From Gordonia paraffinivorans NBRC 108238 (GTDB lineage: Bacteria; Actinomycetota; Actinomycetes; Mycobacteriales; Mycobacteriaceae), in the NCBI RefSeq assembly GCF_000344155.1, contig NZ_BAOQ01000026.1, forward strand, positions 1 through 64,000: a stretch of 64,000 nucleotides of DNA, written 5' to 3'. Below, in pieces: positions 52,536 to 55,434 of this stretch. Numbering within the stretch: the stretch's first letter is position 1; the number at the start of each line of letters is the position of its first letter. A program made the position numbers and the translations under genes. The notes beneath the pieces were generated by a model. It saw nothing but the letters and a program-made list of their open reading frames with translations. It was not told the origin of the DNA and searched no databases.

Positions 52536-53597
52536 TCAGTGCCAGGGTGCGGGTGTGGTGCGCGCCGGGGCGTCGTACGGGGTCGCGGGCAGACCGAACC
52601 GGGCGAAGTCCTCCTCCATCGTCCGGCTGAAGAACGCGACCGTGTGCCGTACCTTCCGCGCCGCCGGATCGATGTCGAGGACCTGGAGCTGGAACGGGCG
52701 GTGGACGCCATCGGGCTCGCGCATGTAGAGACCGAAGGCGGGCTGCCCGTTGGCGACGGTCGGCAGCATGATCTGGTCGCCGGCCTTCTCGGCCGGGCAG
52801 TTGCGCTTGATGAGGGTGCCGATGGCGTCGGGACCCTGGTACCAACCGGTGAACGGTGGCATCTCCCAGATCGCCTTGTCGGTGAACATCGCGGCGATCG
52901 CGTCGACGTCGTAGCGTTCGAACGCCGACACGTAGCGCGCGAGCAGCTCGCGCTTGGCGTCGTCGTCGAGGACGGATGGGTCGGAGCGCGCCGCGTCGGC
53001 CTGCGGACGCGCGCGCTCGAGCTGCGCACGGGCCCGCTGGAGGAGGCTGTTGACGGTCGCGGTGGTGACCCCGATCGTCTCGGCGACCTCGGCGGCGCGC
53101 CACTGCAGGACGTCGCGGAGGATCAGGACCGCGCGCTGACGCTCGGGCAGATGCTGCAACGCCGCGATGAAGGCGAGGCGGATCGATTCGCGGGCGCCGA
53201 CCACGAAGGCGGGATCGGCATCGGGGGCAGGTGCGATCTCGTCGACGGTCCCGGCGAAGGGTTCCAGCCACGGCACCTCGTGGTTCTGCAGGAGGTCGTC
53301 GGTGGGATCGAAGGCGTCGCCGCCGAGCCCCGAGGGCAGCGGCCGGCGCTGCGAGCTCTGCAACGCGGTCAGGCAGGTGTTGGTCGCGATCTTGTGCAGC
53401 CAGGTGCGGACCGATGCCCGGTGGTCGAACTTGTCGTAGGCCTTCCACGCCCGCAGGAACGTCTCCTGGGTCAGGTCCTCGGCGTCGTGATGCGAGCCGG
53501 TCATCCGGTAGCAGTGCGCCACGATCTCGCGGCGGTAGGGCTCGGCGGCGGCAAGGAAGTCGGAGTCGGAGATCGGCCCGTCCGCTGTTGTGGTCAT
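52536..53597 (-). CDS. sigG: ECF RNA polymerase sigma factor with SnoaL-like C-terminal domain (SigG-like)
   Basis: A 353-residue ECF sigma factor. Region 2 (AAAEPYRREIVAHCYRMTGSHHDAEDLTQETFLRAWKAYDKF) and region 4 (QHLPERQRAVLILRDVLQWRAAEVAETIGVTTATVNSLLQRA) are followed from about residue 225 by an NTF2/SnoaL-like domain, which in such ECFs regulates activity without an anti-sigma factor. ATG 53597 is chosen: TAGATT (complement of 53604-53609) ends six bases before it. GTG 53603 is an alternative. The architecture matches mycobacterial SigG. Confidence 0.88.
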   Translation of the reverse strand: MTTTADGPISDSDFLAAAEPYRREIVAHCYRMTGSHHDAEDLTQETFLRAWKAYDKFDHRASVRTWLHKIATNTCLTALQSSQRRPLPSGLGGDAFDPTDDLLQNHEVPWLEPFAGTVDEIAPAPDADPAFVVGARESIRLAFIAALQHLPERQRAVLILRDVLQWRAAEVAETIGVTTATVNSLLQRARAQLERARPQADAARSDPSVLDDDAKRELLARYVSAFERYDVDAIAAMFTDKAIWEMPPFTGWYQGPDAIGTLIKRNCPAEKAGDQIMLPTVANGQPAFGLYMREPDGVHRPFQLQVLDIDPAARKVRHTVAFFSRTMEEDFARFGLPATPYDAPARTTPAPWH

Positions 53598-53851
53598 GGT
53601 CACAATCTACCGCCGCCCACTGACACAATCGACCGCGAAGGAGCAATGCGCCCTTGGTCCGTTTTCGGCGTCGCCGCAGGTCGGATAGACGCTGGACGGG
53701 ATGTTGAAATCAGGCTGAGCGCAAATGGTGCGAACTGCCTGATCCCGCCCTAGATTCGCCGGTGCACGCGTGTGCCCGCGCCGCCCCGGTCCTGTATGAC
53801 CTGGGGGAACGGGCTTGCCGCGACGGGGTCGGCGTTGCTAGCTTGATGCGC

Positions 53852-53959
53852 ATGTCGAGCACGGACCGCAAGCTGCCGGAGGTCACCTACGTGACCACCG
53901 CTCTGGGCTGCCGTCTGCCGCTTGCTCGCGTTCTCTGTTGTTGTCGTCGAATGCGCTGA
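53852..53959 (+). CDS. Poly-cysteine leaderless leader peptide (cysteine attenuator)
   Basis: A 35-residue ORF ending VLCCCRRMR and stop. Three consecutive Cys codons near the end, a TAGCTT -10 (53839-53844) seven bases before the ATG and a TTGCCG -35 (53815-53820, 18-base spacing) match the leaderless poly-cysteine ORFs known in mycobacteria, where ribosome stalling at low cysteine frees the downstream gene. An in-frame ATG at 53846 and a GTG at 53762 (TAGATT five bases before it) would lengthen it. The downstream gene is the ROK regulator at 54061. The stretch 53610-53810 shows nothing else I can support. Confidence 0.75.
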   Translation: MSSTDRKLPEVTYVTTALGCRLPLARVLCCCRRMR

Positions 53960-53968
53960 GCCGACGCC

Positions 53969-54058
53969 TCGTCCACGGGGTGTCGCTCCAGATCTGGTGA
54001 TTCGAGCATTCCCACCCCTTCCCGCCGTCTTCCGCGCGGGGCATTTCGACGAGGACGA
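53969..54058 (+). promoter_or_regulatory. Possible ribosome-site sequestering pair downstream of the leader peptide
   Basis: TCGTCC at 53969-53974, ten bases after the leader stop, is complementary to GGACGA (54053-54058) in the ROK ribosome site. A ribosome stalled on the Cys codons would cover or approach the first segment and expose the second. Pairing is short (6 bp) and needs structure analysis. Confidence 0.45.
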
Positions 54059-54060
54059 TC

Positions 54061-55434
54061 ATGACCGCCACGCTTTCCGACATCTCTGCCCGTAACCTGC
54101 GTACTGCACCGACGCCGCTCACGCGTCGGCCGGCGACACGTCCGGTCCGTCGTGGACCGCAGGTGAATCGCCCGAACGCGCCGTTGTCGGCCGTACCCGC
54201 GCCGGTTCCGCCGAGCCGTGTCCCCGGCGCGACGGCCGACCGGCGCGGACTCGGAAAGGGGGACCCGCGGGTGCACGTCGCGACGCCGCACCTGGAGCTG
54301 TCGACCAAGCCGGCGGCGCTCGTCCTGCGCGCCGCCCGCCTGGCCGGCCCCCTGTTCCGCGATGACGCCGCCGAGCGCACGGGACTCTCCATCTCCACGG
54401 TGAACCGCCAGGTCAGCGCCCTGCTGAAGGCCGGTCTCATCCGGGAGCGCGCAGACCTCGCCCCGTCGGGCGCCATCGGCCGGCCGCGCCTGCCGTTCGA
54501 GGTCAACCTCGCCGACTTCCTCACCCTGGGCATCCACATCGGCTACAAGGTCACCTCGATCACCACCCACGACCTGCTGCACCGCGTCGTCGGCGCGATC
54601 CAGATCCCGACCCCGGTCGCCGAGAACCCCGAGCAGACCCTCGCCGCCATCGGCGTCAGCGCCCGCCGCTTCGCCGAGCGTTGGACCGGCAAGCGTGTCC
54701 TCTGGGTCGGCGTCGCGATCGGCGGCCGGGTCGCCGAGGGGGGCCTCGTCGACCATCCGCGGCTCGGCTGGGAGTCCGCACCGGTCGGTCGGGTGATCGC
54801 CGAGGCGGTGGGTCTGCCGGTGTCGGTGGCGTCGCACGTCGAGGCGATGGCCGCCGCCGAGCTGGTCCTCAACCCCGACGACGAGCAGTCGAGCTTCTTG
54901 TACTTCTACGCCCGCGAGATGCTGGGCATCGCCTTCAGCGTCGGCGGCACCGTCCACACCCCGACCGCGGGCCCGCCCGTGATCGGGCACTTCCCGACCG
55001 GCCCGACCACCCTGCTCGACCCCGAGAAGACGGGGCGTCTCGAGCCTGCGGTGAGCGACACCGGGGTCGTCGAAGCGGCTCGCGCACTGGGACTCTCGGT
55101 CGAGGACGTGGAGGGCATCCACGCTCTGGCCCGCTCCGGGGACGCGACCGCCCGCGCCCTCCTCGAGGAGCGCGCCCAGGTGCTCGGCCGTACCGTCGGA
55201 CTCATCGCCGACATCTTCAACCCCGACCACATCATCCTCGGCGGCCAGGCGTTCACCGACTACCCGGCGACCCTGCCGACCGTGGCGCGTGCAGTGCGCG
55301 AGACCTCGATCGCGACGAAGCGCGATGTGCGCGTGTCACATTCGGGTGCCACCGTGCAGCAGCAGGCGGCCGGCGCTGTCTCCCTCGACGCAATCTACAG
55401 CGACCCGCTGCAGGCGATCACGCTGACCGCCTGA
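54061..55434 (+). CDS. ROK-family transcriptional regulator (Rv0485-like)
   Basis: A 457-residue protein: a disordered Arg/Pro-rich N-terminus (1-75), a winged HTH (LRAARLAGPLFRDDAAERTGLSISTVNRQVSALLKAGLI, ~88-130) and a ROK domain (GVAIGGRV, DHPRLGW, NPDHIILGGQAF). The usual ROK zinc-binding CxCGxxGC is absent, as in the mycobacterial Rv0485 protein it resembles by memory, so sugar-kinase activity is unlikely. It lies behind a poly-cysteine leader, so its expression may follow cysteine supply. Appears monocistronic, ending before the convergent ABC exporter. Confidence 0.87.
   Translation: MTATLSDISARNLRTAPTPLTRRPATRPVRRGPQVNRPNAPLSAVPAPVPPSRVPGATADRRGLGKGDPRVHVATPHLELSTKPAALVLRAARLAGPLFRDDAAERTGLSISTVNRQVSALLKAGLIRERADLAPSGAIGRPRLPFEVNLADFLTLGIHIGYKVTSITTHDLLHRVVGAIQIPTPVAENPEQTLAAIGVSARRFAERWTGKRVLWVGVAIGGRVAEGGLVDHPRLGWESAPVGRVIAEAVGLPVSVASHVEAMAAAELVLNPDDEQSSFLYFYAREMLGIAFSVGGTVHTPTAGPPVIGHFPTGPTTLLDPEKTGRLEPAVSDTGVVEAARALGLSVEDVEGIHALARSGDATARALLEERAQVLGRTVGLIADIFNPDHIILGGQAFTDYPATLPTVARAVRETSIATKRDVRVSHSGATVQQQAAGAVSLDAIYSDPLQAITLTA

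Follow-up and report, generated by a model that had tools for sequence, protein, structure and literature searches.

A short open reading frame (ORF) upstream of a ROK-family regulator gene in Gordonia paraffinivorans NBRC 108238 has a leaderless-type promoter, a run of cysteine codons and a conserved peptide, and we consider it likely that this leader attenuates translation of the ROK gene in response to cysteine. The window, the whole stretch of DNA that was analysed, comprises 64,000 nucleotides (contig NZ_BAOQ01000026.1, positions 1 to 64,000).

Cysteine-attenuator leaders are already a known type. Poly-cysteine leaderless short ORFs are cysteine-responsive attenuators in Mycobacterium smegmatis (Canestrari 2020, as cited in PMC9031893, PMC9094748 and PMC13236596), and a small conserved ORF 5′ of Rv0485/Msmeg_0932 stands among the cysteine-enriched examples of Shell 2015 (PMC4633059), as far as the accessible portions of these sources describe them. 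Beyond the mycobacterial papers, nothing on the ROK leader was found among the matches listed, in a search covering few subscription journals. New, as far as searched, are a peptide family outside mycobacteria, an anti-Shine-Dalgarno sequence written in its codons, a rule for the use of TGT, and a second placement of the leader.

The leader ORF, its promoter and the regulator gene

The leader ORF (53852–53959, forward strand) runs from an ATG at 53852 to a TGA at 53957–53959, 35 codons plus stop, and encodes MSSTDRKLPEVTYVTTALGCRLPLARVLCCCRRMR. Its conserved peptide core, VTYVTTALGCRLPLARVLCCC, occupies 53882–53944. The first-pass annotation had claimed this ORF, which indeed exists and is conserved in 59/59 Gordonia ROK upstream regions, and had it end with three consecutive Cys codons. 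Three TGT codons are present (codons 29–31, 53936–53944), but four codons (Arg, Arg, Met, Arg) follow them, so the run lies near the end. One more Cys codon, TGC, is found at position 20.

Boxes placed for leaderless translation had also been claimed, and by promoter geometry they hold: TTGCCG (53815–53820) and TAGCTT (53839–53844) are separated by 18 nt, and TAGCTT and the ATG by 7 nt. If transcribed from this promoter, the message would start at or adjoining the start codon. A generic sigma-70 scan found no consensus promoter in 53600–54300. All Gordonia upstream regions that were aligned (16 out of 59) share TTGCC and TTGCTA without change. All 119 leaders found by the first motif have a TANNNT hexamer 6–9 nt 5′ of the start, a partly circular count because starts were picked by the same criterion. 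By script, over both strands of the 64 kb, the leader is the sole ORF of 8–59 codons that combines adjacent cysteines (CC) with a TANNNT box placed for leaderless translation. A start at GTG 53762, giving an extended ORF of 65 codons, was rejected: a −10 box with an open frame occurs there only in some loci (5/59 in Gordonia).

Several other elements were seen around the leader. Codon 14 (53891–53893) is Val or Met, GTG or ATG in 114/117 unique leaders; it could fold into a small hairpin with the preceding GTC-ACC, and the window has a GGAGG 5′ of it, which resembles an internal start. Two conserved blocks (53756–53769 and 53708–53724) precede the leader promoter in the 16 aligned Gordonia regions, where TCGCCGGTG is invariant and AATCA-TGAG-GCAA largely so; regulator sites or a second promoter are possible explanations. 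As a regulon tag the conserved upstream block was discarded, since TCGCCGGTGNACGC at up to one mismatch is too common (109 occurrences in the genome; reversed control, 19). A divergent gene on the reverse strand (52539–53603) encodes a SnoaL-domain ECF sigma factor of the TIGR02960 type.

The ROK gene (54061–55434, forward strand) begins 101 nt past the end of the leader ORF, and encodes a winged-helix regulator of the ROK family, 457 residues long (Pfam ROK, E 6e-20). The claim of an Rv0485-like ROK gene 3′ of a leaderless-type Cys leader is supported. The window protein contains no cysteine; counted from the aligned start, 49/59 Gordonia ROK proteins have none and 10/59 have one. A CxCGxxGC motif, absent from the ROK proteins of Gordonia, Williamsia and Tsukamurella loci, is present at 39/40 remaining loci, mostly of the Rhodococcus group, and at 5/5 loci of the group labelled g22. 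The cysteine-free protein may reflect sulfur sparing, but 4/35 long window ORFs likewise lack cysteine. CysR of Corynebacterium glutamicum, an activator of sulfate assimilation, is a ROK protein too, according to the accessible part of its description (PMC2580772).

The same genome has a second ROK-HTH paralogue (G000:C60:6363-7463, 41% identity); by script, no leaderless ORF with CC was found near it in 14 kb around the gene. Two records, titled Kitasatospora arboriphila and Acidobacteriaceae bacterium, are probably mislabelled or contaminated: their ROK genes show 66% and 50% identity, respectively, to the Gordonia one.

Conservation of the leader and its peptide

A ROK orthologue with the leader upstream is found in 59/59 same-genus genomes. 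The first listing found 57 of these 59 leaders; the other two (L050 and L053) have lost the second Cys of the tract. Our family survey started from ROK genes and comprises 139 loci, the 59 same-genus ones and 80 more, the latter drawn from some of the genomes in which ROK matched (246/301 in the search, same-genus included). The core leader is present at 124 of these loci and a different CC leader at nine, and at six no leader was found. Conservation of the ORF and its Cys codons in relatives, proposed earlier as a check, was thus observed in Gordonia, Williamsia, Jongsikchunia, Tsukamurella and genera of the Rhodococcus group. The emphasis on poly-cysteine proved partly right: CC occurs in 116/124 core leaders, but the run is not their most conserved part, and 8/124 lack adjacent cysteines.

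A profile of the leader matched 137/201 genomes in a sample of the family (21/31 genera, E up to 0.01) and 247/400 in an overlapping one (20/31 genera, E up to 1e-5); in a class sample it matched 8/296 genomes, all eight from the same family. Viral contigs gave 17 pattern matches, with no relative among them, and Rfam gave a single sub-threshold match, a chance hit to a microRNA. The NCBIfam models NF042936 (Ms4527A) and NF042934 (putative leader peptide), which likewise describe short actinobacterial leaders, did not match the window leader or three relatives at E up to 10, nor one further relative. Elsewhere in the same genome, a sirA-type, Ms4527A-like leader with a single TGT Cys codon precedes a sulfite reductase-type gene (L290 7392-7472; G000:C99:31391). 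That leader reaches the cut-off of NF042934 and falls below that of NF042936, whereas the ROK leader matches neither.

Across the family the core VTYVTxALGxRLPxxRxLC is conserved with variable codons, and the N terminus varies. In 117 unique core sequences G19, R21, L22, P23 and R26 (window numbering) are invariant and their codons are not; at G19, for example, GGC is used 53 times, GGT 36, GGA 19 and GGG 9. Over ALGCRLPLAR the mean uncorrected pS is 0.56 and pN 0.096 (pN/pS 0.17). Since residues are invariant while codons vary, and pN is far below pS, it is amino acids that are selected, not RNA alone. This, together with the eight leaders that keep the core without adjacent cysteines, suggests that the leader peptide itself matters besides its Cys codons. 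A model of codon starvation alone does not account for the conservation of the peptide.

Codon choice in the cysteine tract is strongly biased. Its first Cys is TGT in 115/116 leaders, whereas the ROK genes of all 139 loci, counted from the aligned start, use TGT 10 times and TGC 179 times; for comparison, 35 long window ORFs chosen by composition have 27 TGT and 84 TGC. Over whole leaders the ratio TGT:TGC is 302:116. The preference may serve pairing, slow decoding or both.

Other cysteine-rich leaders also precede ROK genes. Five loci of the group labelled g29, whose ROK proteins are 47–51% identical to the window protein, each have a CC leader such as MYCSASFHTTTACFYAGACCCRALRRA 5′ of the ROK gene; these peptides are of an ACCCRA type with a GTG start in 4/5, and 14/15 of their tract Cys codons are TGT. 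At the one g29 locus examined, the ROK gene is followed by mshA and a phosphoglycerate mutase gene, the gene order of M. tuberculosis Rv0485–Rv0489; by this analogy g29 is probably Mycobacterium. The leader profile found no match in the 17 g29 genomes listed from the class sample or in those listed from the family samples. Other Cys-rich leaders stand at four further loci, most of them of an MCRMCC type. What the core, g29 and MCRMCC-type leaders have in common is the Cys codons.

A second copy of the leader, with its own −10 box, occurs in three Rhodococcus-group genomes (L242 658-771; L241, reverse strand; L243 663-794). Downstream of it stand two genes, the first encoding a family-5 solute-binding protein and the second an Opp/Dpp/Nik/Gsi-type permease; these families were assigned on the L242 copy. 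The homologue of the binding-protein gene in Rhodococcus tukisamuensis comes immediately after the ROK gene, with an overlap, and two further genomes of the R. tukisamuensis group have both genes side by side. From this arrangement, the leader looks like a regulatory cassette common to two parts of one function. Seven other loci with transporter-gene homologues (L260–L266, four of them from Gordonia) have no core leader before those genes; the short ORF of L263, which has spaced Cys codons, is unrelated.

Pairing of leader codons with the ROK Shine-Dalgarno sequence

In the minimum-energy fold of the free window RNA, the ROK Shine-Dalgarno sequence (SD; GAGGAC, 54051–54056) pairs with the Cys codons and the Arg codons that follow them, and 1/200 shuffles folds equally well. 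This pairing, register A, joins 53937–53951 with 54045–54059. In register B, the Val27-Leu28 codons (GTTCTC, 53930–53935), just 5′ of the Cys codons, can pair with GAGGAC. The earlier attenuator proposal had placed the anti-SD downstream of the leader, in a TCGTCC (53969–53974) complementary to GGACGA (54053–54058). Both motifs are present and complementary, but in the minimum-energy fold the SD has the Cys codons as its partner, and 53963–53973, which holds most of TCGTCC, lies in a local hairpin of its own. As the main helix TCGTCC:GGACGA was abandoned, its exact letters being found in 3/12 closest aligned loci, window included. The attenuator reading itself gains from leader-to-SD pairing that beats synonymous recodings, with the leader codons, not TCGTCC, as the main anti-SD of the free fold.

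Of the 124 core-leader loci, 103 have a clear SD 60–230 nt downstream; the recoding tests used these, thinned to 65 by identity and not corrected by a tree. In 51/65 thinned loci the leader tail pairs with the SD of its own locus better than synonymous recodings do on average (Wilcoxon 6e-7; single-locus p<0.05 in 21/65), and when all tails are ranked the own one comes at 0.29 on average, where about 0.51 would be expected. Taking leader codon usage as the null, 52/65 pair better (2.7e-7), single-locus p<0.05 being reached in only 9/65; when the Cys codons are also fixed, 42/65 do (9e-5). Harder thinning gives 30/40 and 21/24. All three decoy targets move in the other direction, and at n=65 their shifts are significant (p 0.002, 0.001 and 4e-9), which shows specificity, yet also an imperfectly calibrated null.

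Full-length folds leave the SD more than half paired in 97/103 loci, with the leader tail as its main partner in only 29/103; the tail is defined there from one codon before the Cys tract and omits part of register B. Two registers recur, on the Cys codons and on codons 26–28. The latter gives at least six contiguous pairs in 32/48 Gordonia loci, and at the silent third position of Arg26 the base matches the one after the SD in 0.59 of 101 loci versus 0.39 in cross-locus pairs. Run length in register B exceeds permutation in Gordonia (p 0.0015); in the other two sets p is 0.68 and 0.27 (one Williamsia locus, L115, is counted in the third set both here and in the masking below). A single helix common to all genera was sought and none was found, and the register-B excess is lacking outside Gordonia.

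We modelled a ribosome as a mask on the Cys codons. SD accessibility rose in 67/103 loci and fell in 11/103; with a control mask about 15 codons earlier it rose in 7/103 and fell in 9/103 (Wilcoxon 7e-10). The rise was seen in 39/49 Gordonia loci, 15/20 of Williamsia/Tsukamurella and allies, and 13/34 others (Rhodococcus group, g22 and others). Mean accessibility under the mask went only from 0.27 to 0.38. In the window strain the SD is barely freed (unpaired 0.17, and 0.19–0.22 under the mask) because the post-stop segment 53963–53973 takes over the pairing; in this model the segment containing most of TCGTCC is a predicted competitor for the SD. In the window only the ROK start codon opens clearly (0.61 to 0.84–0.87). 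With the ribosome at the leader stop codon, the window model predicts an almost fully closed SD (0.003).

Proposed mechanism, alternatives and meaning

Under the attenuator model, transcription would begin at the ATG, as the promoter geometry suggests, and the leader would be translated without an SD. When cysteine is plentiful, the ribosome would finish and leave, and the codons for R26–L28 and Cys29–Arg33 would fold onto the ROK SD, a pairing with statistical support that would hold the regulator low. When charged Cys-tRNA is short, the ribosome would pause on the TGT codons and cover the anti-SD codons, and ROK would be translated. The conserved nascent peptide probably aids the pause.

Like the M. 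smegmatis attenuators as the citing papers describe them, the leader is a leaderless short ORF (by promoter geometry) with consecutive Cys codons near its 3′ end (three in the window) and a downstream SD sequestered by leader RNA (in the window fold and the recoding tests, the leader tail being the main partner in only 29/103 full-length folds). Unlike those attenuators, on the same descriptions, it has another peptide, strong amino acid conservation beyond the Cys codons and a regulator gene downstream, and some of its relatives have only one Cys at the end. With the Rv0485/Msmeg_0932 leader, as the accessible text presents it, it shares its position before an Rv0485-type ROK gene and its enrichment in cysteine. 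The peptide of the mshA-linked g29 relatives, a stand-in for the published one, differs.

In arrest peptides of the TnaC/ErmCL type, a conserved nascent sequence precedes the stall codon, and the stalled ribosome alters downstream pairing; tryptophan acts on TnaC in the exit tunnel. The leader resembles them in its conserved nascent-chain residues upstream of a candidate stall codon and in a modelled ribosome that changes downstream pairing, and differs in that the conserved end point is Cys codons and arrest is putative. It is possible, though we would not bet on it, that the conserved core, not shortage of Cys-tRNA alone, stalls the ribosome, the trigger perhaps being, by analogy, cysteine or another sulfur metabolite in the exit tunnel. 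The five residues invariant over 117 unique cores despite varying codons and the pN/pS of 0.17 over ALGCRLPLAR argue for this, as do the eight leaders that keep the core without CC and the position of the core, about 18 residues directly before the Cys codons, where the nascent chain would lie in the tunnel. The g29 leaders and four others, which stand before the same gene without the core, yet with CC, argue against it. More tentatively still, VTYVTxALGxRLPxxRxLC(C) might define a new family of cysteine-sensing arrest peptides, in which the nascent chain works together with one to three TGT codons, the anti-SD lies in the same codons, and the whole is a transferable cassette found also before a peptide-type ABC importer.

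Strong purifying selection would equally be expected of a small trans-acting protein whose RNA pairing is incidental, but codon choice fits SD pairing beyond the needs of the peptide, cysteine codons persist where the peptide is replaced, and the three extra copies examined precede a gene too (a transporter), though the survey itself started from ROK genes; we judge this very unlikely. The approximately 100 nt of untranslated RNA between leader and ROK in the window would leave room for transcriptional attenuation by intrinsic or Rho-dependent termination. However, 53600–54300 contains no intrinsic terminator-like site and the pairing signal is at the SD, not at decoys, which makes termination unlikely. 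That the leader only brings in ribosomes, or persists as a relic with no regulatory function, is hardly credible given its presence in 21/31 and 20/31 sampled family genera and a pN/pS far below 1.

A part of the ROK protein in the cysteine/sulfur response, as the first-pass annotation had it, is putative. The attenuator reading, which remains our preferred one, would place a transcription regulator, not just enzymes, under likely cysteine attenuation in a large actinobacterial group, giving a two-step cascade. The strong peptide conservation combined with few cysteines means that some 'poly-Cys' leaders might sense via the nascent chain, not tRNA charging alone. The leader also hints at the signal sensed by Rv0485-type ROK regulators.
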